Assembly: GCA_903813345.2 (NCBI GenBank)
Contig: CAIIXF020000001.1
Span: 52,777,885-52,841,884, forward strand
Direction: 5' to 3'
Source: Owenia fusiformis
Lineage: Eukaryota; Annelida; Polychaeta; Sabellida; Oweniidae
Length of the DNA stretch: 64,000 nucleotides
The position numbers were made by a program, and so were the translations under genes. The notes under the pieces were generated by a model. That model was not told the origin of the DNA, searched no databases, and saw only the letters and a program-made list of their open reading frames with translations. Every line of letters begins with the position of its first letter. The first letter of the stretch is position 1. Shown here piece by piece: positions 4,001 to 60,819 of the stretch.

Positions 4001-5901
4001 TTCATTTACTGTTTTTTTAAAGTTGTGAGCATTTCATTTCTCAAATATTCAAATTTCCCGCCATTTTTCAAAAAAGTTGAAATTTTTTAATCTTCAAATA
4101 TTTCTTATAATGCATTTCAAGAAAGATTATATTTTTAACCCAGATGCAAAGATTGAACAAAGGACACACTATTTCAATAATAAAATGCCATATTTAATGG
4201 GCCACTTCAATGTTTTAGCATATCAAAAATACTTTGCAACATTATATTAGTGATGTCACTATACTAAGGTGGCAAAAACTTTTTGAAAAATTTTAATTTT
4301 TTTTCGATGTCAATCTTTTCTAAATATGTAGAGTTCAATAATAAACCAATGTTGATTGTCTAACCAGGTTAAAAGGAAGAATATATTATGTTTAAGATAT
4401 CATTGTACCATTGGTTTCTATAAGAACCATTTCTCGCTTATTTATGAACCGATTTTCTTAATTTTTTCGGCAAAAAACATGCGAGGACATCAATTGGTAT
4501 GAATTGTGGCTAATCAAAAGATATATGTGACCTCAACTTTTGGAACAAAAAGTCCATCAAAAACCACTTTTTGAAATCTAAAAAAAAAGTTTCACATATC
4601 ACATTTTGATAAAATTGGGTAAGATTAAAAGCCAGAGTGGTTTAAACTTTATATGGGGACTTTAACAAAATGGATGAATTTCAGTAGGAGAAAGACTTTT
4701 TTATTTTCACCATATTCACCAAAAAGAGGACGGTTGATCTCATCTGTATCTAAATATTACATGTTAATTGTATCCTCCGATCATCCGATTACTAAAAACC
4801 TAGTCAGTCACGAGCAAATATCTCCAGCAACTTCAACAATCGAGTGAGAATTCACTCACTTCAGCAACCAGGACGTATCTGGTGAATTTTGAAGTCCTTT
4901 GATGTATATACTCGTATCTGATTCGCTTTTCAGTAATTATTAACTTGCGGGTAAACCATTTAGATACCAATCGACCTCCTTCTTGGTGACAATGATGAAA
5001 ACAAATATTTCATACGACAGAAGTACATCCCATTTGTTATTAAGACCGTATTTGTAACCAGGTGATCTGAGGACCAGTGAGAACAACTGAGTTTTGCCTT
5101 CAGTAAAAGTTCAAATGAAGTGTAATTCCCGACCAGGGCTCAATAACCTATCGACTTTGATTTTTTCCTCTATCATATTACATTTCACAATGCATTTTGG
5201 CCAAGGGTCGATGTTGCCCACATTAGGGGTACATCCGATCATTGTAATGTGCGTGTAACTCCTCATAAATCCGAAGAATGCCGACTGTACTTAACTTAGT
5301 ACTATCCAATGCTGCAGACCAGGCATTTATTCATCAACATCTAATATATAATGCCCACAACGCCAAATACGTTTAAGCGTTATATGGCACGAGGGGAAAA
5401 CAAATCGCAGTTAGGAATATGTAACAAAAAGTACACCCGGCCATGAAGAAACAAACTAAACCTTCCAACCAATAATGACCATAAGCACCAACCCATTTGT
5501 GATTTTGTACACTTTAACTTCACTCGAACAACTAAATTTCTTAAAATTGTTGAATGTTTACTATCCCTCTCCATTGGGAAGTTTGTTAAAGTAATTATTT
5601 TAACGGCCATAATAAGGTAAAGCAAGTATTAGGTATCCATGTGAGTGGACATTGTTTAACTGACCTAAATTCTCATTCCCATGACACAAATTCATCTATA
5701 TCTCATTTATAATTGACTTATAGATCGTGTTCAAGTTTCTTATAGAATTAAGTACGAAACGATATTGTATCTCGAGACCTAGTTTGTCATTAAGTCAAAT
5801 AAATGAGCAATACCCCAGCTTGGACACCTTGTACTTTTCTACTGAACAATAATTTTCAATTTCCATCCATTTAAGAACGACGCGCGCAAGCAATTGTAAC
5901 G

Positions 5902-9733: not shown

Positions 9734-10960
9734 TCATATTTCAGTTTCTTTTTTCAGGTTTGTGTCGGGTTTCACTTCTTTGATTTCCAATACAAACGTG
9801 TGTGTAGCACTCATCTCAATACACTGTGACTGCGCTGACTGGGTTGATACGATCGGTGTCGATACGAATGATTTAAACTTATAGTGCCGATAGGTGGAGT
9901 TCACATTGCGCTGACATTGAGCATTCTGTTCCATTGTTATGCATCGGAAGAAATCCAAAACTGTTTTTCTAAAAGGTACGTTAATTGAGTAGTAAAGAAT
10001 AAAATTCAAAGTGAAGTTTAAACTTTGCATAAAGTTTGTGACGATAGCTGCGATTTCAAAATTGGGACTCGTGGACGATTCTTCCCGAAAAATACTTATT
10101 AACTTCAAAACTTCAGCAGGGAATACTAAGAGCAAAAATATGATAACGATAGCAACGAGAATGTGTGTTAAACGATTGCTCGATGACGTCACTGATCTGT
10201 TACCATGACAATCAGGCATTCTGAATGATTTTCTTAATGTCTTTATCAAACAAACATTACTGATGATTAGAAGGATGAAGGGGATGACGGCTCCGATTAG
10301 ACTCCATAACAGTTTATATACAAGATACCCCTGTTTGTAATCAGGATCGTTTAATACACCAATATCTGCCATATACATTCCTTTTGATTTTGTTCCATAG
10401 TTTCTGATCTTTAGTGTCCAGTATCTAGGAAGAGCCAAGATGGCCGATATAACATAAACCAAGACTAACGTGACCTTGACCTTTGTCAAGGTCATACAAC
10501 TCCGTGCCCTTAATGGAAAAAGCACGACCGTGGCTCGACTAACGGCCATAACTACAGTTAACGCTGTTGAGGAGAGTATGAACATATTGATGATCCCAGA
10601 ATGGTACACTCTGTAGTAAAGCATGAAGCATTCTGAGTCGTAGATAATAGTTCGGTGCATAAAGCCAAGAGGAAATTCAGCCACACAGAAAAGAAAATCC
10701 GAAACTGCCAAAGCAATAAGGAAAATATGTCCAGACTTTTCCATTTCATCCATTTTAGCTTGAAGTTGTTTTCGGGTTAGTATTATCATATTAAGTAGAT
10801 TACCCAATATTCCCAGTGATAATACTATCGGTAAAGCAATCGTCTCAACCCAATACCTTACAAGCGTGGCAGAGGTTTCCCATTTATCATCTTCTCCAAA
10901 ATCGGTCGTATTTTCGAAATGCGATGTGACCACGTCATGTTCATACGAGTCCTCATTCAT
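9734..10960 (-). CDS. class A (rhodopsin-like) GPCR, neuropeptide/FMRFamide-receptor-like
   Basis: Intronless receptor of 408 residues in the plasma membrane, predicted to signal through G proteins on binding a ligand, probably a peptide. The start is the ATG at 10960. The frame remains open two codons further to a GTG, but an in-frame TAA lies at 10997-10999. Seen: N-glycosylation site N17; seven hydrophobic segments at about 40-62, 78-100, 122-146, 163-181, 215-240, 267-286 and 303-326; TM1 GN (N54); TM2 LAVSD (D88); TM4 tryptophan; TM7 NFILY at 319-323 in place of NPxxY, followed by an FRK helix-8 start and a Ser/Thr-rich tail. Odd points: the DRY motif reads SRA (141-143) and the second extracellular loop has no cysteine, so the usual TM3-loop disulfide appears absent. 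No close ligand assignment is possible from sequence. Other class A subfamilies remain possible. Confidence 0.88.
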   Translation of the reverse strand: MNEDSYEHDVVTSHFENTTDFGEDDKWETSATLVRYWVETIALPIVLSLGILGNLLNMIILTRKQLQAKMDEMEKSGHIFLIALAVSDFLFCVAEFPLGFMHRTIIYDSECFMLYYRVYHSGIINMFILSSTALTVVMAVSRATVVLFPLRARSCMTLTKVKVTLVLVYVISAILALPRYWTLKIRNYGTKSKGMYMADIGVLNDPDYKQGYLVYKLLWSLIGAVIPFILLIISNVCLIKTLRKSFRMPDCHGNRSVTSSSNRLTHILVAIVIIFLLLVFPAEVLKLISIFREESSTSPNFEIAAIVTNFMQSLNFTLNFILYYSINVPFRKTVLDFFRCITMEQNAQCQRNVNSTYRHYKFKSFVSTPIVSTQSAQSQCIEMSATHTFVLEIKEVKPDTNLKKETEI

Positions 10961-11200
10961 AGTCACTGGTTTGATATCTAACCCTGCACTGTCTAATTAA
11001 ACATCACGGCATTCATTTCCTTCTTGGTCAATGAGATCATATTGACATTCAAACGCTTTAAATAATATGCGGGTAATCTTAGTCTCCTTAGTCTATTGTT
11101 GAGAATTAACGAAGTTTGATGCCCTAGTGATTTCTCTTCGCGTTGTATGTCCATCCCAATTAGGCTTGTCTCTTAAGAATTATTGTCGATGCACTTATAT

Positions 11201-33087: not shown

Positions 33088-36000
33088 ATGGCTGATCTAA
33101 AAGGCAAGAAGGTTGTGTTCACAGGGACACTCACAAATCAAACACGTAGTCAAGCAACCAAAGCTGCAGAGAAACGTGGTTGTAAGGTGGCGGCATCTAT
33201 TAGCAAGTCCATAGATTATGCTGTAATTGGGGAAAATGCAGGCCAGAAGGCAGACAAGGCAGAATCGTTAGGTAATTATGTGAAGATACATTACAATGAA
33301 AATGCATGAAAATTGTATCACTAATATTGTAATGCATGTAGTTATCCGTATGGATTGTTTTGAAACCGTCACTAAACCGAGCTACAAGAGTATTATATTA
33401 TATGTTGGTCTTATCTCTGTTTTCCATTCGATAAGTAGGTTATTAATAATCAAAAAATGTATGTAAGATTTTCTGCTTTTATTATTCTTGATAATATTCT
33501 AGGTTTGTGATTTTCCACACTCCGTCTGGCTCTGGATAAAATTATTTCTGTAGTTGATATTACTCATAAGCCAAGTCAAATATTATTATACTGTGACCTA
33601 TAATATTGCAGGAATCAAGTGCCTCACGGAGAATGAATGGGAGGATATGGTAAATGTAACATACTTTTTCAAAACTAGTTTGAATAACTTAAATCAGGCT
33701 CTCATAACCATAACAAAAATACTTTATTGCTAGAATGATTAACATGAAAAAGATATCTTTACTATTAATTTTTAGCTTAGTGGTAATTCAGCCAAGAAAG
33801 CAAGGCTAGACAGCCCTGAGTTGGATGATGGCGAAGATATGGAATCTGATGAGGAAGGTGCTAAATCTGATTTAGATCTGAAAGGAAAGAAGGTTGTATT
33901 TACAGGGACACTCAAAAATCAAACACGTAACCAAGCAACAAAAGATGCAGAGATGCATGGATGTAAGGTGGCGGCATCTATTAGCAAGGCAGTTGATTAT
34001 GTTGTAATTGGGGAAAATGCAGGTCAGAAGGCAGACAAGGCAGAATCGTTGGGTAATTATTTAAAACTTTTTGTCATACACTCAGTCCATCAGTTTTGAT
34101 TTTTTTAGGATACACAAGGTCATCTCATCGCGGAATCCCTTTTTGAATTCTAGTGATTCTGGATAGACACCGAAGATCATTTTACAAAACTCATGAGATA
34201 CAAATAAATTTATTATTTGAGAGAATGTATTAGTAAAATGTTTTAGTCGATCAATGAAGTAATGTATTACTATATTAGTGCTTTTTGCAGGAATCACATG
34301 TCTCACGGAAAGTGAATGGGCGGATGTGGTAAGTATCATCACTAGTGTAAATTTATTAAATATGATTTCTTCACAGTATCATATATTGTTATCTCCTATC
34401 ATTGTTAATACATTTAAGATTGTGTACTCTCCATAAATATATAAGCAAAAAAGTACATGCAGTAAGCTTACATGGCAATAAAACCGCAATATATTCAACT
34501 GCAAGATTGGTCTGACTCTGAGGGTAGATGGATCGACTGAAAATGTTATTCACTGTTTTGCAGCTAAGTGGAAATTCAGCTAAGGAAGATGGTGACTCAG
34601 CCGATAAATGTATTAATTCACCAAAGAAAGAGAGGAATTCAGCCAAGAAAGGGGGTAATTTATCAAGGAAAGGTGGCAATTCAACAAAGAAAGCAAGGCT
34701 AGACAGCTCTGAGTTGGATGATGGCGAAGATATGGAATCTGATGAGGAAGGTGCTGAACCTGATTTAGATCTGAAAGGCAAGAAGGTTGTATTCACGGGA
34801 ACGCTCATAAATCAAACACATAGTCAAGCAACCAAAGATGCAGTGATGCATGGGTGTAAGGTGGCGGCATCTATTAGCAAGGCAGTAGATTATGTTGTAA
34901 TTGGGGAAAATGCAGGCCAGAGGGCAGACAAGGCAGAATCATTAGGTAACAGTAACAACAACTTCACTTGTCTAGCTGCATACTTACTTACCCTACAATT
35001 CTGAAATGTCTAGTTAAAGTTATGTCACGTTTTAACGCTGTATATTTAACTATAAATAGACTTAATATCATGTTGAGCAATTATTTACGATACATTTGAA
35101 TGAAACAAACTTCAGAATCTACTTGAAAATTGTGATTAAAAGTCAAGTTGACAATGAATGGTATAATTGCAGGAATCAGGTGTCTGACGCAAAGTGAATG
35201 GGCGGATGTGGTAATTATCTCCACTTTCAGACAATTTCCATTTCATTTATTTATATCACAGTTCATACAAAGCGTTCCATTAGCTTTTTCTGCTACTATA
35301 AGTTTGTATTTTCTGAGATATGAGTTTTAGCATACTTTTTATTTGGTATCACGCTAATAAATCAAGCATGACTAGTAATCTGATACATCAAAATCCTCTG
35401 TTTCAAATAAATTGATACGAGATTATGACTCCTTTTAAATACATAATGAATCACACAAACAAACGTTAATTTAACTCATAATATCGTACATACGACTTTT
35501 TCCGATGAGTTTTCTATTTTACAGTTGAGTTTTAAGTCAGCCAAGTATAGAAAGTTGCCAAGCCCTGAAATGGACGATACTGATAGCGAAGACGTGGAAT
35601 CTGAAGAAGAAGATGTTAAAATCGATGTAGATCTGAAAGGCAAGAAGGTTGTGTTCACAGGGGCACTTACAAATCAAACACGTAGCCAAGCAACTAAAGC
35701 TGCAGAGACACGTGGTTGTAAGGTGGCGGCATCTATTAGCAAGGCAGTAGATTATGTTGTAATTGGGGAAAATGCAGGCCAGAAGGCCGACAAAGCAAAA
35801 GCGTTAGGTATGTTTTGTCCTATTTTTATTATTACTTGGATCATCGTATTCTGCAAATATTTCCCTTTGATTCATATTTATATTTACGACTTCAAAGACT
35901 ATTCACCTGAAATGTATCGCAAGGTGGATATAATCTAAGATCAACCTAGATATAATCAGACGAGTATTTTAAATGATGCCCTAACAACTGTAAGTTATTA

Positions 36001-39000
36001 TTATAAGAAAAAAGGTGTTTTATGTTATTTCAGGTATACAGTGTTTAACAGAGAACGAATGGGACGATGTGGTAATTATTTACTTACGTATACTGCTAGC
36101 AATGTAATAAAATGTAGCATGATTTAATATTGTCAATTTATGCTTTCTCATCCAAGCAAAACATTATGTTTCAAAATATGCAAAGTTTGTATTATCTAAT
36201 CTGTCATCAAATATTACTTTTTATGACTTGAAAAACTATTTAAGATATTTTTTGAATAAAGACTTTCGAAAAAAAGTTCTTCATTTTAATGTTTTAAAAT
36301 ATTTGAATTCCCCGCCATTTTAGAAACATTGAATAGATCTGGCAATATGCATATGTATATTATTCCAATCATTCAATCTTTGATTGTATGCAACGTTAGA
36401 GGCATTTTATTTAGTGAGGTCGATAGGCTGGGATGTCACTCAGGTGGCAAAATATGTTTTCTAAGAATTGTCGTTTTTTTCTTTTACAAATATTTTCTAA
36501 ATATGCTAAACTTTTTAAATAAAGCAATATTATCTGCCCACCTCTACTGAAAATAGGTTTTTGTCATGTTTCAAATCATTATGTACCATTGGATTCAAAT
36601 TATAACTAAACTAAAATTTTGAAATGTTTTTTTCCGAACCACTTTTCTTTGCTTATGAGGTTATTTCTAATTTTCAACAACTTACAACAAAAATATGTTA
36701 GGATGTTTATTAAGCGTTGTTGTAATTATTGCTTTACAATATGTGTACATGAACTACCACATTTTGATATCATTTGGCAAGACTGTAATATAAACAAATC
36801 TTGTTTATACTTTATAAGTCAACTACAAAGATAGCATTTGTCTCGTTTCATTTAAGATAAGTGGTAAAGGTGGCTCATCACGTCAAGCTGCGTCACAGGT
36901 TAAAAGTGGTGGACCTAAACGAAAGTGTAGATATTGGGACAAATGCTTTCGAACAAACAAGAACCATCTACAGTTGTTTCTGCATCCAGAGAAACCTCAA
37001 CTTAAATCAACTTGTAAGTATTAAAGTATTTGTTTCCCGGTATATTGAGATAGTAGGGATACAGACCTACAGCAATTCATATGTGCATGGAGACGGAGGT
37101 ATCACAAATGTCTTCACCCATATCAACGATATCCGGGAAATGATCGAGTAGTATATTTCCTCTAATATATCATCAACCTTTTCTAATACCTTTGATTGAT
37201 ATGTCATCAAATTATAATAGCAAAATACTGAGTATCTACTTGTATGTGTGTAGAAGTATTTGATTATTGACCGCCTGTCAATCACTTTGGGATTCATAAG
37301 ATAAAACAGGCTTGCACATTTTCGTTCAGTGGTACTGAGTTCTTGCTTATGCCCTGTACATAAACGGTGGTAATAATACTAATTATGTAGAAATGGCCAC
37401 TAATTTTGGTTAAAAATGTAATCTTTGATAATTCAAGTAATATAGTGCAGTCAGAATGTGGGTTTCGGCGTGCGTTCAGAGGGATTTTATGGGACATCAT
37501 TTTTCATGTTACTACTATGATTATACATATTTGTATGGATTATTAGATCTTAGTTTTTCAGCTTTTAGATTTTGTGGCCATTTTACCCCCCATGGGCTAA
37601 AATTTGGACCCCTACTATATAATTGGGCAATAACTCAAAAAATACTCAGTGGAATGTTTCCAAATTACAAAGTTGTATTGCACTAGGCTAATTGAATATA
37701 TGATAAAAATTTCATGTCACATGGTTAACTGGTTGCCATGGAAATGGATAAAACATGCCCGTCGGGTGTCAATTTTCAGGCCAATTTTTCAGGACTGACA
37801 GAGTCATTTCATGCATATTTTGTCACCAATGTGTTAGGAAGGGTTAAAATGTCAATAGAAAACTTCTATAATATATAAGCAACAATTGTATGTAAAGATC
37901 AGTCCACAAAACCTCAGATTTTGGCCTTGTTAAGTATTTTATTTTACTTTGGGAGCTGACATGTGATTGGTTGCCATGGTAACCAGGGTTTTAAGGAAAT
38001 CCTGACCCCGACATTGGATGGATGTTATAACTTTTGAAATAAGGGAGATTCATGTCTCATTTTTTCAGATTTTTGACAATGATTGATTTAATGTATTGAT
38101 TTAGACTTTGGGAGCTGAAATTTGATTGGTTACCATGGAAATCAGGGTTTTGTTGAAATTCAGACCTCCACAACTGATGAACACTATAACTCTTAAATAC
38201 AGCCAGATAAGATAATCTTTTCAGATGTAAGATAATAATAATATGTGTGTATTGTATTAGACTTTGGAAGCTAGGATTTATTTGTCTGCCATGGTAACCA
38301 TGTTTCATTGTCATGGTAACTGCTGTTTTCGTTTTCAGATTCACCTTTATTCTAGATAGGTCAATACATGACATAAAATACCAAATTGCTCAAAGTTACC
38401 ATTTTATTCTTAATTTTGTTTTTTTTCTATTTTATATGATTTACATGCTCATGACTCAATAATACTAGAGATGCAAACATTGTTTGGCTCATAAAATATC
38501 AAATACTAGAATAGTAAACAATACATGTATGTCTGACAATATTGCCTTATTCCATACGACTAGTTCTTACAAAAGTTCTGACTCCTAATTTGTTCATTTG
38601 AACTCATCATTACTGTTTTCATTTAGCACAATTTCCTCTTAACATCAATTTCTGTTGGAATGAAGGATTGTTTTGACCATTCTGGAGATAAGGATCCTCA
38701 GGGTATATAGTCCATTCATGCAGTATTGGACTTGGCAGAATGGGTTAAGACTGGTCCCTGTGATTTCACTGTATATAAAATTGGCTGGTGTCCAAGGCTG
38801 AACCCTCAGATATCAATATGTTCCCATCCAATCTGTCAAATTTGAATGTGTTCTGATATCAACCAAAATAATGCCCAAAAGCCATACCAAATGCCCAAAT
38901 ATATGACCAGTGCCATACCAAATATCCAGATATGAAAACATGGCCATTCAAAATTTCTAATGCCTCGAGAAGAAGACATGTCATTGAGGAAAACAACCAA

Positions 39001-42000
39001 AAACAACCTCACATTAAGGATATACTAGATCAATGCCATACATGTGCAACAAGTGAGGGGCAACATATTTTTCACAACCATTCCCAAATCCGACCATTGC
39101 TATACCTCTCAAGTCATAATTTGGAGAGCATTCTCATACCAGATCCTAAAATTTGGGTCCATTGCCATATCAAATGTCAAAAGTAACCCACCTGAGCTGA
39201 GGATCCCCTCAAGGTTTATATACAGTGAACTTCTGGGAAACGGGGGGTAATGTTTCTACTTCCAAATATAAGTTTTATCATCCATCCTCTTCAAATGTTA
39301 CAATGAGCAATCATTACAAGATGGAAGAGTTCATCATTTAATTCATTGCATTATATTAGCTGCTATGAAAGCAGTCAAGGACCAATCTTGAAAGATGGGA
39401 AGAGTTGAAATGTCAACACCTCCATAAGTGAGGGCAGGACTGTTCTGTTTTGGAGAATATCTTATGTGAAACAGCTCATATTGTTATCTATTGATGTAAG
39501 TTACAAATATATTTTTGTTAATCTGCTGTTCTTTTACTGGTGAACAATTCAACTTTGGATTTTATTGTGTCAGGAATTTCTATATTGATTCCTATTATGA
39601 AGAAAATAACCTTAAGAACCTCAACTGATATGAACTCTGTCCCATTAGATGTCAGAAGCTCAACCCAACCCCTGTAGCTGCAAACCTAGGACCAAGTCCT
39701 GTGTGAAGCTATTTTAGCCTCCAATGCGTTTACTGGATCAGATTCCTCCAGTGCAGAAATACAAAAAACAGCAGAAATAGAAAAATAACTGCCACTAATA
39801 GATTACGAGATGAGCTGTTTCCCATGAGATGCAGAAAAAACAGAACAGTGCTGCCCTCACTTATGAAGGTGTTGACATTTTCTTTCACGTTTGAAGAGGG
39901 TAAATTATCCAACCTATGTATGGACACATTCCCACCAGCCTAAACCCAGCTCTACCATTATGCCCAACACTGCATGAATGAACTGTGAATTCCCTGACGA
40001 ATCTTTAACACAAGAATGGTCAAAAGAATCCTTCTTTCCAATAGAAATTGTTGATATTTTTAATTAAGAGGCAATTGTGGAAGATGAAAACGATAATGAT
40101 GAGTAAAAACAAGTTGGGAGTCTGAATATGTGTGAGAACTAGTAGAATGGAATGAGGCTATACTGTCAGACATACAGGATAAATTGCTGAAATAAAGAGC
40201 AAAATGATAATTTTGAGCATTTTGGTATAACATGTTGTGAATTGACCATTCTCAAATGAAGGTAAGACTGAAATAAAAAATTAGGGGTACCATGACGACG
40301 AAACATGGTTACCATGGCAATCAAGTAAATGCTAAGCTACAAAGTCTAATTCAATACACAAATCTAATTAATTTTTAAGATCTGAAATGATGATATCTGT
40401 ATCTGCTTGAATTCAAACATTAAAGCATTTATCAATTGAGGAGGTCCAAATTTCAATAAAACTCTAGTTACCATGGTCACCAATCAAATTTCAGCCCCCA
40501 AAGTCTAATTTAATATTTATAATCAATCATTGTCTAAGATCTGAAATAATGAGACATGTATCTCCCTTATTTCAAAAGTTATAGCATCCATCCAATGTGG
40601 GGGTCGGAATTTCCCTAAAACCCTGGTTACCATGGCAACCAATCACATGTCAGCTCCCAAAGTAAAATAAAATACTTAAAACTAACCATTTAAGAAGATC
40701 TGAAAAAATGAGACCTGTATCTCCATTATTTCAAAAGTTATAGCATCCATCCAATGTGGGAGCTCGAGTCTATGAAATAGACCCCTGTATAAGTCATGGA
40801 CCAATACAAGGCCAAAATCTGAGGTTTTGTGGACTGATCTTTACATACAATTGTTGCTTATATATTATAGAAGTTTTCTATTGACATTTTAACCCTTCCT
40901 AGCACATTGGTGACAAAATATGCATGAAATGACTCTGTCAGTCCTGAAAAATTGGCCTGAAAATTGACACCCGAAGGGCATGTTTTATCCATTTCCATGG
41001 CAACCAGTTAACCATGTGACATGAAATTTTTATCATATATTCAATTAGCCTATACCAATGCAACTTAGTAATTTGGAAACATTCCACTGAGTATTTTTTG
41101 AGTTCTTGCCCAATTATATAGTAGGGGTCCAAATTTTAGCCCATGGGGGGTAAAATGGCCACAAAATCTAAAAGCTGAAAAACTAAGATCTAATAATCCA
41201 TACAAATATGTATAATCATAGTAGTAACATGAAAAATTATGTCCCATAAAATCCCTCTGAACGCACGCCGAAACCCACATTCTGACTGCACTAATAGTGG
41301 ACTGATTTGATGTTGTCTGGGTACCAGTATACAGATTTGGATGCCCTGGGGTCATAGAAACTCTATTTACAAATTAATTTTCAAGATGACCATTCTGTTC
41401 AAAATGGCCGTCATTTTTTCGTAAATAATATAGTCTTTGGTAACAGTTGACGGATTTGGTTCGAATTTTTTTATGGTGAAAATGGCTTATTTTTTATATC
41501 AGTACATATCAGTTATAGGATTTTATGCTTTATACGATAATGATTTATGGTCATACGACTAAAGAAAGAATTCAATATGTGGCAGCCCATTACGCCATGG
41601 GTGTAGATTTTGCCAAAAAACACAATACTGCTCGACTATTCTCTGGTAATGTCCAAAATGACAAGGTGAATATCAAAATAAGTTTTGTTTGGTGCGATAT
41701 GCCACTCCGTGGTGCTGCTGTTTTCCAGTTTCTCCGGCCTTGCATTCATTGTTAATTACAACTCAAATATATATCGTATTAAAGCCTTTCTTTCTTTCCA
41801 TTGCTCTGTCACTGTTTTATTTTTGTTTTGTTTTAGATAGCATAGAACCTGCAAACACAGAGCAAGCATGTACATTTGCCGATGTACCTGATGTCGCTCT
41901 TTTACACCTATTCCAACTCTTTAATGTGGAGGACCTAGTTAATCTACTCAGAGTTTGCAAGAGATGGAATGAACTTATCGAGCCAAATGATAACCTCTGG

Positions 42001-44286
42001 CGCAAGTTTATTCCTAACATTGCAGGCTTCGATCCACCTGCTGCAGAATCTGCTAGGGAAGTTATCGAATCTATTTGGAGAAAGAGTATAAAAATTGGAA
42101 AAGAGAGATGGTATCCTGACGTATCACAAGCTTTCGTAGCCCGAATGGCAGAAATGAAGAAGTGTAGTCAGTGGGGGTTTTCTGGCAAAGACCCTATGAG
42201 AGCAGGGGCTACACTCTACCTTAGACTTAACCCCATATATGACTTTGTAAAGAAAGGGGACGATCCAAATAATACAGAACTACTAGGTGTGATGAAAGAA
42301 ATTTATGAAATGTTTAATAGGGGAAAGCCATACTTTGACCCAGCAAGGGATTCATATGAAGATGATACTGATGCAATTGATCCCGATGACGCTGACATCA
42401 AAAATGAAAAGGACGTTATGGAAAAGTCATCGTTAAGCAATTACAGTGACACAATAACCGTATGTTTTACATTGTTTTGTAAATACTCGCTGGTGTTATT
42501 TTCGTAATAAAAACACACACCCCGGCGAATTGGTAGAAACATATCTCTACGTGATGACAAAATTGCAAGCAACATGTACAACTGACCTACAAATCTATTC
42601 CTTACGATCTCAAATACAATATCTTCCAAGAGATCCGCAATATGTTATAGATTGGTGAAGTTATTCAGGATTCAAAGTGCAAAGAATGTGGGAAATGTTT
42701 AAATTCTCCAAAATAATGAATATGGTTTGACTTACTCCCGTCGAGAGCTACTTAGATTTTGAAAGTATAGCTCTCTATCGCTAGAATCAACAGCTTAAGA
42801 ATCCTGACTTCAAAGAAAATTCCAGGGAATTCAGCTGACTCATGTTGCACATTATATACCTGAAAATGTATCCTACATCGCCATGTTTCATTCAGCTCAA
42901 CTATAGAACGTCTCACTGCCCTATGTATCGACCAGGACTTCATTTTTTATTGGTCGTGTCAAAAGTTTTGGCCAGGTATATTCAATATGGCGGCTTGACG
43001 TTTCCCAAGTTGCGCATGCGTCGATAATATTTCCGTTTAACCGCCATAATGGAAATGGGTATCGAACAAAAAAAGATTAGAACTCCTGATCGCCATAGAA
43101 GCACATCCGCGATCCTATATGCACGGGGAAAGTAGATACATATGAGCCCATATGTAGGCTACAGTTTGAGACAAACAGTAAGCCGCTGACTGGCGCTGAT
43201 CAAATTTAGATGTCACAATGTCTCACGATGGAGAGCTATACTTTCAAAATCTAACATGGTAGCTCTCGACGTGAGTAAGGTTTAACCATTTTTATAAAAA
43301 ATAATACATTATTGATAAAATCTTTAGTTATCCTGAAATAAAGTATGCTCTTTGGGGAATTTTAGAAAACAAACATAACAAGAAATGGTATGAAAATATT
43401 CTAAAATTGAAATAATTTTTCCCTAGCTTGCTCGCGAGATCTTATTCCCCTTTTAGATCAAATTTCCAATAACGATTTGAATCATGAATATAATCCAATG
43501 TGTTATAATACAATTGTTAATTCCTTGGAGTTGGAAATAATTCACAATGATAGTTAATCGCATTAGGGTTTAATTGCCAATAAACATACGTTTTTTACCA
43601 AATATGTAATTTTATGTTACCACCAGAAGTTTCTTGTGGACGGTGTTCTACGTTTGGCGTCTGTTGCAAATGACAGGTGGTGACATTTTGCATGTTAATG
43701 CTATGTTGTATTATCACATTAATGTGTATTTTATTTTCAGTACGTTCAAAGTATTGTGGAGCCTCCGTATGCTACAGAGGTGTACGATATAGCACCGAGG
43801 GATCTTGAGGGATTCTCACACCTGAACGAAATCACAGGTACAGTACCACGTGCTCTTATGAGTGTTGATCAATAACTTGTGAACATTTTTACACGGACAC
43901 TTTTATTATCTCTTAATCACCTCTTTAGAATTAGTCTTGAAGCTTCTCTTTTGAGAAACTCTTGGCTAGAAATTCCTTTTCGTGAAGAAAATAACAATTT
44001 AAAATGACCAAAAATATTTTTAGATGATACTCCACCACCCTATGTGTATGAAGGACGAAGTGATAGCGAAGATGAAGAAATGCAGATGCTACAGAAACAC
44101 TACAAAACGCCAAAGCTGTCCGTTTACAAAGAGGTCATGGAGATTATATGTGGAGAGGATGATACAGCAAAGACAAGGCAGTTTTTTCTTAACGATGGGT
44201 GTTTCAATGAAAACTATGAATATTCATGGGAAATCCTAATTGGACCTTATGCAGCAGTGTATGAATCAAGATTCTTTGATTTGTAG
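33088..44286 (+). CDS. four-BRCT, PBZ zinc-finger and F-box protein (predicted 805 aa)
   Basis: Exons: 33088-33271, 33612-33649, 33776-34052, 34291-34328, 34564-34945, 35173-35210, 35525-35807, 36034-36071, 36857-37013, 41837-42459, 43741-43837, 44024-44286. Every junction is GT-AG and phase-compatible, and the total is 2418 nt. Start: ATG at 33088 in ACGATGG context. BRCT domains at about 1-74, 107-179, 248-319 and 355-426 share LKGKKVVFTG, GCKVAASISK and ...EW, the single-BRCT type of NAD ligase, PARP1 and RFC1. Linkers are acidic with Lys-rich patches (possible NLS KKAR). PBZ at 450-469 has C450, C456, H463 and H469 spaced C-x5-C-x6-H-x5-H, as in APLF and CHFR. F-box at 491-537 ends NDNLWRKF, the Skp1-binding type. 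The C-terminus (538-805) is unrecognised, acidic, and has a PPPY motif. Inferred role: nuclear SCF adaptor directed to PARylated or damaged chromatin. Weakest link: the 4.8-kb intron joining PBZ to F-box, which holds a large inverted repeat. The two halves could be separate genes, though the phases match and the F-box exon has a strong acceptor and no good start codon of its own. Confidence 0.75.
36857..37013 (+). other. PBZ zinc-finger exon of the BRCT/F-box gene
   Basis: Exon 9 alone carries the PBZ motif: KRKCRYWDKC followed by FRTNKNH and ending HPEKP. The flanking splice sites are a TTTAAG acceptor and a GTAAGT donor. It begins ISGKGG, matching the LSG start of the BRCT linker exons, so its upstream phase (0) agrees with every preceding micro-exon. 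It ends in phase 1, which exon 10 completes. Confidence 0.8.
37443..41292. mobile_element. 3.85-kb inverted-repeat element in intron 9
   Basis: It begins AGTGCAGTCAGAATGTGGG and ends with the inverse. Arms of about 0.9-1.0 kb match (37443-38350 against 40270-41292), and weaker inverse matches continue towards the centre (39405-39450 against 39835-39880). Within the arms a unit of about 165 bases containing GGTTGCCATGG recurs in tandem. No transposase was recognised. It occupies most of the intron between the PBZ and F-box exons. Confidence 0.75.
42732..43278. mobile_element. hAT-like TIR element, copy 1 (intron 10)
   Basis: The ends are inverse copies starting TTACTC[C/A]CGTCGAGAGCTAC, over about 50 bases. 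Flanks are GGTTTGAC and GGTTTAAC, an 8-base duplication with one difference. A second copy in the opposite orientation lies at 46799-47358. Non-autonomous. An 8-bp duplication fits hAT or P-type elements. Confidence 0.8.
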
Positions 44287-58900: not shown

Positions 58901-60261
58901 TAACCATGAGTATATTCTAGCAATAAATATTATATTTCTCATCAAAATACTAATGTAATATGTTTTTCTCTACCAGCCCATGGTGCCTTGGATTAACAAT
59001 TCGAGGAAAATACTTTTTAATGAAATATGTAGTTTTGATGATCAGATCATGCTCAAAGATATTTGCCATACAATGTCCTGTCTCATGTTTTGTTTCGGGT
59101 TTGGAGACTTACCTATGTCCTGGATAAAGTTGAAGCTCTCTCTTTGTCAAATGCCTGAATCCGAATACTATGTCTTTCCAAAAGGGATCCTATAAAAATT
59201 CATCGAATTCATAACACTTCCAAGGTTTGTATTTTACGGTCGAAATCACATGCACTTATGTACTGTAAGCAATACTTCAAAATGATGTCCAGGGTACTAG
59301 CTAGATTGATGCCATCCGTACTTACCTCCTGATATGATGTATGCAGTGAATATCCTGACACATAGTTCAATCCAGCATCCCGTGCATGTGCTGTACCAAG
59401 CAAGCTGTTAATATGTTCAAATGTTTCCTTGCTCCATTCCCTTGAATTTAATTGGATACTGCAGTACTAACATGTTCTATACATAAAAATGGCGATATTT
59501 TTGGCATGAGGAAATCTATAGAGTACGTTGAAAAAACAAGGCCAGCCATAACTGGAATAATCTAATTCTTTTGTAATCAACTTCATTTTTCTGTTACGGA
59601 AACTACATGTTTGTACATTCAATGGTGAGCATTAAAAATGAATCCACTTATCGAAAAAAGATCATTGTGTTTGTTTGCCCCTTCACTGTCGTGTAGGTTT
59701 TTCCATTATTGAATTCTTGAGGATATAGGAAGATTCAAGCAGACTATCATTAATTCACACAATGTTTTGGTGTTTCTGCTCCCAGTCTTGGTTCTTCCTC
59801 ATAGTTAAACCATTTGTTTCAAAATAGATAACTTAATATTTATTCTTTCATTTAATAATTGAATTTGTATGTCTATTATCAGTTACTTTCTATATTGTCC
59901 ATTGAGTTTTGAAGATTTTGACATATTAATCTGTCACCCCTAGACCTTAGTTTACATCCATTGAAAAGAAAGTTGATTGCGTAGAGAAATTACAAAAATT
60001 ATTCCAGTTTTTTACATGTAGAATATAAGGTTGACTTATCATTAAGGTTAACTTGATGAAAACATACAGTTGTTTTTCAATTGGAGTTTCAGCAAGTACG
60101 TGTGGTTCCCAGAATCCCCCCGAGCCGTCACTTGTAGTATATGGGGAGAATTTCTCAGCTACAATGGTAATATCCACTCCTGGTATTGTATCCTGGATTC
60201 TAGCAGCAGTGGAGACACCTATTACACCTGCACCGATAACACAAATCCTTCTTCTAGACAT
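52937..60261 (-). CDS. D-aspartate/D-amino-acid oxidase, gene B (338 aa, peroxisomal)
   Basis: Tandem paralogue upstream of gene A, same strand. Exons in transcript order: 60261-60068, 59440-59326, 59189-59113, 58807-58687, 57492-57391, then either 6a 55795-55725 or 6b 55636-55566, 54584-54467, 54137-54039, 53056-52937. With either exon 6 the sum is 1017 nt. Start is the ATG at 60261; the frame extends only to a GTG three codons earlier. Seen: GAGVIG FAD loop, WEPH with the active-site His, [34 protein letters not shown], and terminal SKL (PTS1). Exons 6a ([11 protein letters not shown]...TYIVP) and 6b ([11 protein letters not shown]...TYMLP) are both open and both 71 nt, so including both shifts the frame; they look mutually exclusive. 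Exon 7 has a GC donor. A dead second exon 9 lies at 53198-53079. Expected activity as for gene A; substrate preference cannot be read from sequence. Confidence 0.88.
53079..53198 (-). pseudogene. dead duplicate of the terminal oxidase exon (gene B)
   Basis: It reads [18 protein letters not shown] like true exon 9, then hits a premature stop. Its acceptor is CGG instead of CAG, and the original stop codon position reads CAA. It arose by tandem duplication of exon 9 with flanking sequence (unit about 142 bases). Gene A shows no equivalent. Confidence 0.8.
53267..53446. mobile_element. 180-bp hairpin MITE in oxidase gene B intron 8
   Basis: The ends CTTGTATTC[A/G]CGAATGCAAC and inverse match over about 45 bases, with one or two differences. 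It splits a block that is continuous in gene A near 44830-44840. A fragment with the same CTGTAGCCGACAG-type core is at about 29967-30005. Confidence 0.75.
55566..55795 (-). other. duplicated alternative exons 6a and 6b of oxidase gene B
   Basis: Two homologous 71-nt exons (6a 55795-55725, 6b 55636-55566) 88 bases apart, each with a TTTAG acceptor, a CCAAA/GTAAGT donor and an open frame. Both encode the segment leading to the active-site tyrosine loop. Same phase on both sides (0 in, 2 out). Confidence 0.8.
57605..57845. mobile_element. 241-bp TIR element in oxidase gene B intron 4
   Basis: It starts CAGGGTGTCCAATAAATAAG, ends with the inverse, and the arms match over about 55 bases. The corresponding place in gene A (about 49531-49540) is empty. 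The CAGGGTGTCC terminus is shared with the larger element at 31937-33014. Confidence 0.8.
57875..58591. mobile_element. 717-bp TIR element in oxidase gene B intron 4
   Basis: The ends AGACCACGTG and CACATGGTCT are followed by inverted arms of about 120 bases, including GTATGGCAAGTGATTTTAGAC and its inverse. Gene A reads through the site without it (near 49556-49565). A shorter related sequence appears at 58865-58920 and 50795-50850. Confidence 0.7.
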
Positions 60262-60819
60262 GATCCCCACGATCCACTGATTTATATCTAAACTAAGTAG
60301 CTGTACTTACATGTAGTGGAATAAGAGAACGAATACACTTTATCTGTTTATGGAGATATCAGATATTTTCTTCTCATGTTTGCGAGAACAAGTTCAGCTA
60401 TGATCGGGTTATTTATTAACCGTAAACAGTGTGTAGCTCCTAGCATGGTTTTATGGTCTTACTAAAGGCACTGATTGTGTGCTAGTGTTACAATCGGCTT
60501 ATATTTGAAGTATCAATGGGGAAATCATTCATAAATATTCAATATGGAGGCTCAATGCAAATTTTGTCTCTCATTCGCAGGGGTCAAACACGTGTTTACT
60601 TCAAGTCAAAGTCATTACATGGTCAGGTCCGGAAATTGAGTTACAGTAGACTCATATGTTTAGTTAAATCATTCAATGAACAACTAGTAAAAATGGTTGA
60701 ATGTATATCAATGTTTTTATTTATAGTACTAAACTATTCATATCATGTTAACTGTCTACTGTAATTTATGTTTAGATCTTAAGAAACAAATTTATTTTTG
60801 AAATGCAGAGACTGTTTTA

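Follow-up and report, generated by a model that had tools for sequence, protein, structure and literature searches.

Candidate poly(ADP-ribose)- and DNA-break-directed SCF adaptors: a BRCT-PBZ-F-box gene family in the annelid Owenia fusiformis

The ubiquitin ligases CHFR, RNF146, HUWE1, TRIP12, and Deltex each carry a catalytic domain of their own. One account of ligases that read poly(ADP-ribose) (PAR) names all five, CHFR with a PBZ zinc finger and several with WWE domains (PMC12687431). According to a second, APLF, CHFR, and SNM1A are the only PBZ proteins of mammals, and outside mammals PBZ occurs together with BRCT, RRM, RING, and PARP domains (PMC4245714); seven PBZ proteins are reported for Dictyostelium (PMC5087659). 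Here we describe a gene of Owenia fusiformis that is predicted to join BRCT repeats, a PBZ finger, and an F-box in one protein. It lies on the plus strand at 33088-44286 of a 64,000-nucleotide stretch that we call the window (assembly GCA_903813345.2, contig CAIIXF020000001.1, positions 52,777,885 to 52,841,884), and is referred to below as the window gene; its relatives elsewhere in the same genome are C1par, C10a, and C10b. The initial annotation of the window knew of no described protein uniting PBZ, F-box, and BRCT. In agreement with this, our search of the open PMC literature, with subscription papers, preprints, and protein databases outside its range, found neither that combination nor any protein with PBZ and an F-box.

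Gene model and paralogues

Rebuilt from the DNA, the window gene has 12 exons (Table 1) and a coding sequence of 2418 nt, which translates to 805 amino acids (aa) and a stop. AG stands ahead of exons 2-12 and GT behind exons 1-11, and the phases are compatible, so that the twelve exons of the initial annotation all keep their positions in one frame. The four BRCTs, PBZ finger, and F-box that it had named are likewise borne out by Pfam profiles above their cut-offs when the entire protein is scanned: BRCT in 4 stretches (8.2e-53), PTCB-BRCT (1.6e-13), PBZ (7.8e-8), F-box-like PF12937 (3.2e-9; 36.9 bits versus a cut-off of 24.3), and F-box PF00646 (9.6e-6; 25.8 bits versus 20.5). An LLGL match (23.2 versus 22 bits) was rejected as spurious; it sits on BRCT 3, and no stretch of it passes alone. 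Each BRCT repeat is a two-exon unit with a phase 0 exit; the entry phase of units 2-4 is 0 as well, so units can be gained or lost with the frame intact.

Searches of the genome with the F-box and C-terminal part (12 exon matches) and with one BRCT unit (9 matches) led to the same four loci. C1par, 1.07 Mb away from the window gene, is intact, with 10 exons encoding 713 aa, three BRCTs, PBZ, F-box, and C-terminus, and the two genes share the start MADLKGKK and the end FFDL. C10a has 6 exons encoding 451 aa, with one BRCT, a degenerate PBZ, the F-box, and the C-terminus. It reads complete only if MESQEQG is the start, stops being present just upstream in that exon, and needs three splice sites shifted by a few bases relative to the window gene; its model is less certain than that of C1par. 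The fourth copy, C10b, is decayed, and its PBZ exon has an in-frame stop and a frame change. The number of BRCTs thus differs among the readable copies (four in the window gene, three in C1par, one in C10a). Because paralogues with an identical domain order occur in the same genome, chance is excluded, and the combination BRCT(n)-PBZ-F-box-C-terminus is confirmed at the level of sequence as real.

The initial annotation had read these domains as one chain, and the gap between exons 9 and 10 had left room for doubt. This gap is a 4.8-kb intron, most of which is filled by a foldback element with outer arms at 37443-37930 and 40806-41293 and additional arm pairs between them. The PBZ-to-F-box introns of the paralogues are short, 530 bp in C1par (10419-10948 in locus coordinates) and 257 bp in C10a (4588-4844). 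At each of the three loci checked, the open frame ahead of the F-box (59, 29, and 28 codons) runs without an ATG; exon 10 has its first Met downstream of the F-box in the window gene and within it in C1par. The same-order paralogues and the small size of their introns at this place, together with the missing ATG, argue for a single gene and largely answer the doubt.

Sensor domains, F-box, and selection

BRCT 1 best matches DNA ligase A (5.7e-11) and RFC1 (3.5e-8). In yeast Rfc1, a DNA phosphate is described as held by T166, G167, R174, and K209 (PMC9359705), and in BRCT1 of XRCC1, PAR is described as held by the pocket residues R335 and K369 (PMC6334254). T12, G13, R20, and K54 of BRCT unit 1 are the counterparts of the Rfc1-type residues; in unit 2, aligned to human RFC1, the T, the G, the R, and the K of the GQK motif line up, RFC1 having one more residue before the K. 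The spacing from R20 to K54 is 34, as between R335 and K369 of XRCC1, and is 35 in yeast Rfc1, both of these proteins being compared by spacing only. All four pocket residues are kept in 6 of the 9 BRCT units examined, among them three of the four repeats of the window gene, and the pocket is lost in both C10 units. By relatedness and by its T-G-R-K pocket the array belongs with the RFC1/LigA class, from which BRCT 3 departs. The array had been taken for a damage reader; its four BRCTs stand, and the claim can be refined to an RFC1/LigA-type array with a DNA-end- or PAR-type pocket and no tandem pair of the phosphopeptide type. Given this likeness and the pocket, binding of DNA ends or PAR appears likelier than phosphopeptide reading.

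The PBZ finger (PF10283) has the exact zinc-site spacing C-x5-C-x6-H-x5-H at the annotated residues C450, C456, H463, and H469, and its best match among solved structures is APLF (7.3e-5). Two Tyr and an Arg of APLF are said to contact adenine and phosphates, and by position only, Y452, F457, and R458 occupy these three places (PMC6264785). In the C10a finger, N replaces the third zinc ligand and G the tyrosine of the CxY motif. The C10b relic keeps both zinc-ligand histidines, in a shifted frame, and the missing ligand of C10a is therefore probably a derived state.

The F-box can be aligned with those of the Skp2 type over a stretch that takes in PD and VCKRW, and it matches Cdc4 (2.4e-4), 1fs1_A (0.0014), and SKP2 in 1fs2 (0.0086). 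The region behind it had been annotated as unrecognised and stays so in Pfam: scanned separately it gave nothing above cut-off (SPT2 reached 17.4 bits against 24). A profile search of the PDB (E up to 5) returned 31 sequences, some of them F-box proteins and the others designed or unrelated and low in score, and no relative appeared among 52 pattern matches in IMG/VR viral contigs or 28 in GTDB prokaryote contigs. AlphaFold2 run on exon 10 without an alignment gave a mean predicted local distance difference test score of 39.7, too poor for a fold search.

Rates of non-synonymous (dN) and synonymous (dS) change were compared among the copies. Over the 697 codons aligned between the window gene and C1par, dS is 0.216, dN 0.064, and dN/dS 0.297; exons 7-8 of the window gene were left out for want of a full counterpart. 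By segment, dN/dS is 0.455, 0.200, and 0.242 for BRCT units 1-3. The PBZ exon, with 5.5 non-synonymous changes to 2.5 synonymous ones, reaches 0.617, and no change of either type falls within the 26 codons of the finger. Among the segments measured downstream of the BRCTs, the F-box is lowest with 0.164 over 44 codons; the part that follows it has 0.370 and exons 11-12 have 0.290. Between the window gene and C10a, the F-box and C-terminus show a dN/dS of 0.208 (bootstrap 0.132-0.291) over 316 codons at a dS of 1.13, the BRCTs 0.359 and 0.264 for the two window units compared, and the PBZ exon 0.349 (bootstrap 0.132-0.954). C10a against C10b gave 0.431 for exon 10 and 0.629 for exon 12, which matches expectation if C10b is decaying.

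Since the domain order is the same across the divergence of the window gene and C10a, it predates their split at a dS of about 1.1. In a tree of nine BRCT units, the first units of the two C1 genes pair (0.919), as do their second units (0.914) and the two C10 units (0.996); window unit 4 and C1par unit 3 pair at only 0.117. By these pairings, at least two BRCT units are older than the C1 duplication. Growth of the array from one unit was dropped as an account of its history, as the tree is compatible both with expansion in the C1 genes and with contraction in the C10 genes.

Proposed function and alternatives

We consider it somewhat probable that the window gene is a single-chain member of a small family and encodes a break- and PAR-directed adaptor of Skp1-Cul1-F-box (SCF) ligases. 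In the mechanism we propose, the BRCT phosphate pockets would hold the 5'-phosphate ends of DNA (or PAR) at a break, the PBZ finger would bind the PAR that PARPs make there, and the F-box would dock Skp1-Cul1-Rbx1, so that proteins near the break, whether PARylated or clients of the C-terminal domain, would be ubiquitylated. The genome has one Skp1 exon match, 14 PARP-domain exon matches, and four HPF1 matches. C10a has lost the BRCT pocket and one PBZ zinc ligand, and its F-box and C-terminus are still under purifying selection; it may be a version that has the same ligase half and no sensors. More tentatively, the family as a whole might consist of PAR- and DNA-end-directed SCF (cullin-RING) adaptors in which the BRCT and PBZ sensor array can be lost as a unit and the ligase half stays, sensing and sensor-free forms coming from different genes, a broader claim that we regard as possible rather than probable. 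An F-box adaptor that reads PAR and breaks would place cullin-RING ligases under direct PAR control, and natural paralogues with sensors intact or lost would allow recruitment to be separated from substrate choice.

Several points weigh against this proposal. F-box proteins are not always part of SCF ligases, and one of the four family loci, C10b, has decayed. Two of the four pocket residues are lost in window BRCT 3, where the pocket reads T, G, H, R. The finger has W for a G of APLF and F for its second Tyr; this W recurs in further PBZ matches of the same genome. The dN/dS of the PBZ exon is the highest among the measured segments between the C1 genes, from few changes, and its bootstrap range against C10a is wide, which leaves selection on the finger unproven. 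The C-terminal region, having no homologue in our searches, gives no clue to a substrate. Finally, tandem PBZs are said to bind PAR 1000x better (PMC6264785), and the single finger here may bind it weakly.

Among other explanations, an F-box protein that works through its conserved C-terminal domain, with BRCT and PBZ serving nuclear or chromatin retention and no choice of damage sites, survives best and is still rather unlikely. C10a speaks for it, since dN/dS remains at 0.21 across an F-box and C-terminus that follow a disabled BRCT pocket and finger; these losses would fit two sensors acting together with a self-sufficient C-terminal half, and fit the retention explanation as well, but they come from one lineage. 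Against retention, both C1 genes keep their PBZ ligands and three or four BRCTs, and 6 of their 7 BRCT units have the whole pocket.

A role in genome defence or innate immunity in place of repair, with the F-box removing a client once PAR or foreign DNA ends are sensed, is quite unlikely. Duplication of the family and its variable repeat number would suit such a role, as would PBZ exons upstream of AIG1/GIMAP GTPase exons at four loci and of a Mab-21 (cGAS-like) frame at one; PBZ is also found, however, at LIG3-like and HPF1 loci, both PAR or repair genes, and enzymes of replication and repair carry similar BRCTs. A PAR and DNA-end reader whose F-box binds Skp1 outside SCF, with no ligase activity, seems decidedly improbable to us: F-box proteins outside SCF exist, but the Skp2-type F-box and its low dN/dS count against this explanation, although they speak to binding of Skp1 more than of Cul1. 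Two neighbouring genes, BRCT4-PBZ and F-box, joined in error are very unlikely and were rejected, the 4.8-kb length of intron 9 and its repeat element being outweighed by the compatible splice phases and by the paralogue and ATG evidence given above.

The loci behind the immunity argument came from 9 PBZ and 35 AIG1 profile matches in the genome. At four loci (4/9 PBZ and 4/35 AIG1 matches), one or more PBZ exons lie 0.5-4.4 kb upstream of a same-strand AIG1/GIMAP exon, a likely PBZ-GIMAP fusion; our search of the open PMC literature yielded nothing on GIMAP paired with PBZ. At one of them (L009), the frame upstream of PBZ is Mab-21-like by eye only. At C10:22.05-22.06 Mb (L008), two PBZ-like exons lie upstream of a Mab-21 nucleotidyltransferase frame (PF03281 1.4e-14, PF20266 2.3e-13), and the two parts may be one gene or two. 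A PBZ exon at C1:54.85 Mb (L005) is near a LIG3 BRCT exon (PF16759 1.6e-22), with a ligase C-terminal exon below cut-off (PF04679, 20.7 bits); this is probably a DNA ligase III with a PBZ finger. At C2:29.644 Mb (L010), a PBZ exon precedes same-strand HPF1 exons (29.623-29.637 Mb, minus) by about 7 kb, probably an HPF1 gene whose product has an N-terminal PBZ. Elsewhere in the window are two open frames that by eye resemble a receptor and an oxidase (Table 1).

Table 1. Features of the window gene, its relatives, and other loci. Unprefixed positions are those of the window.
Feature	Position	Strand	Description
Exon 1	33088..33271	+	Start ATG, first part of BRCT 1 (aa 1-62); start shared with C1par
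Exon 2	33612..33649	+	End of BRCT 1 (aa 62-74)
Exon 3	33776..34052	+	Acidic linker, first part of BRCT 2 (aa 75-167)
Exon 4	34291..34328	+	End of BRCT 2
Exon 5	34564..34945	+	Lys-rich/acidic linker, first part of BRCT 3 (aa 180-307); pocket R to H, K to R
Exon 6	35173..35210	+	End of BRCT 3
Exon 7	35525..35807	+	Acidic linker, first part of BRCT 4 (aa 320-414)
Exon 8	36034..36071	+	End of BRCT 4
Exon 9	36857..37013	+	PBZ zinc finger (aa 447-472; C450 C456 H463 H469); genome profile match 1.4e-6, above cut-off
Foldback element in intron 9	37443..41293		488-nt inverted arms, 98% complementary
Exon 10	41837..42459	+	F-box (aa 493-536), first part of conserved C-terminal region
Exon 11	43741..43837	+	C-terminal region (aa 687-719)
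Exon 12	44024..44286	+	C-terminal region and stop codon (aa 719-805)
C1par	C1:51.73-51.74 Mb	-	Intact paralogue
C10a	C10:18.496-18.500 Mb		Paralogue; less certain model
C10b (L003, L004)	C10:18.502-18.510 Mb		Decayed copy
PBZ-AIG1/GIMAP loci	L006 C4:24.96, L007 C3:27.42, L009 C3:8.02, L011 C11:28.87 Mb		Domains confirmed on hand-joined frames
Open frame	9737-10996	-	420 aa; by eye like a rhodopsin-type G-protein-coupled receptor
Open frame	59950-60306	-	By eye first exon of a D-amino-acid or D-aspartate oxidase

Comparison with known systems

CHFR is like the window protein in that its PBZ is tied to ubiquitin ligation (PMC12687431). It differs in having FHA and RING where the window protein has an F-box and a BRCT array; Pfam (entire protein, E up to 1) found neither FHA nor RING in the latter, and orthology with CHFR or APLF was rejected on that ground. 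APLF, which has an FHA domain and is not known to have an F-box, carries the PBZ nearest to that of the window protein among solved structures. It is described with two PBZs (PMC6264785), whereas the window protein has one PBZ stretch and no FHA found by Pfam.

The BRCTs resemble in sequence and in their T-G-R-K phosphate pocket the single-BRCT class of RFC1, bacterial DNA ligase A, and PARP1, from which the family differs in having three or four tandem BRCTs (one in C10a) on an F-box protein. XRCC1 is not known to have an F-box or a PBZ. Its BRCT1 is set beside the window protein by spacing, not sequence, for a PAR-binding pocket with the same R...K distance (PMC6334254).

With the SCF adaptors Skp2 and Cdc4, the window protein shares the F-box; it differs from them in the BRCT-PBZ part in front and the unrecognised domain behind. 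The substrate domains of Skp2 and Cdc4 are of the LRR or WD40 type. RNF146 and other PAR-directed ligases likewise place a PAR reader on a ubiquitin ligase (PMC12687431). RNF146 does so with WWE and a catalytic domain of its own, where the window protein has PBZ and an F-box, and under the adaptor function proposed here the window protein would be the SCF equivalent of CHFR, RNF146, and other ligases directed by PAR.

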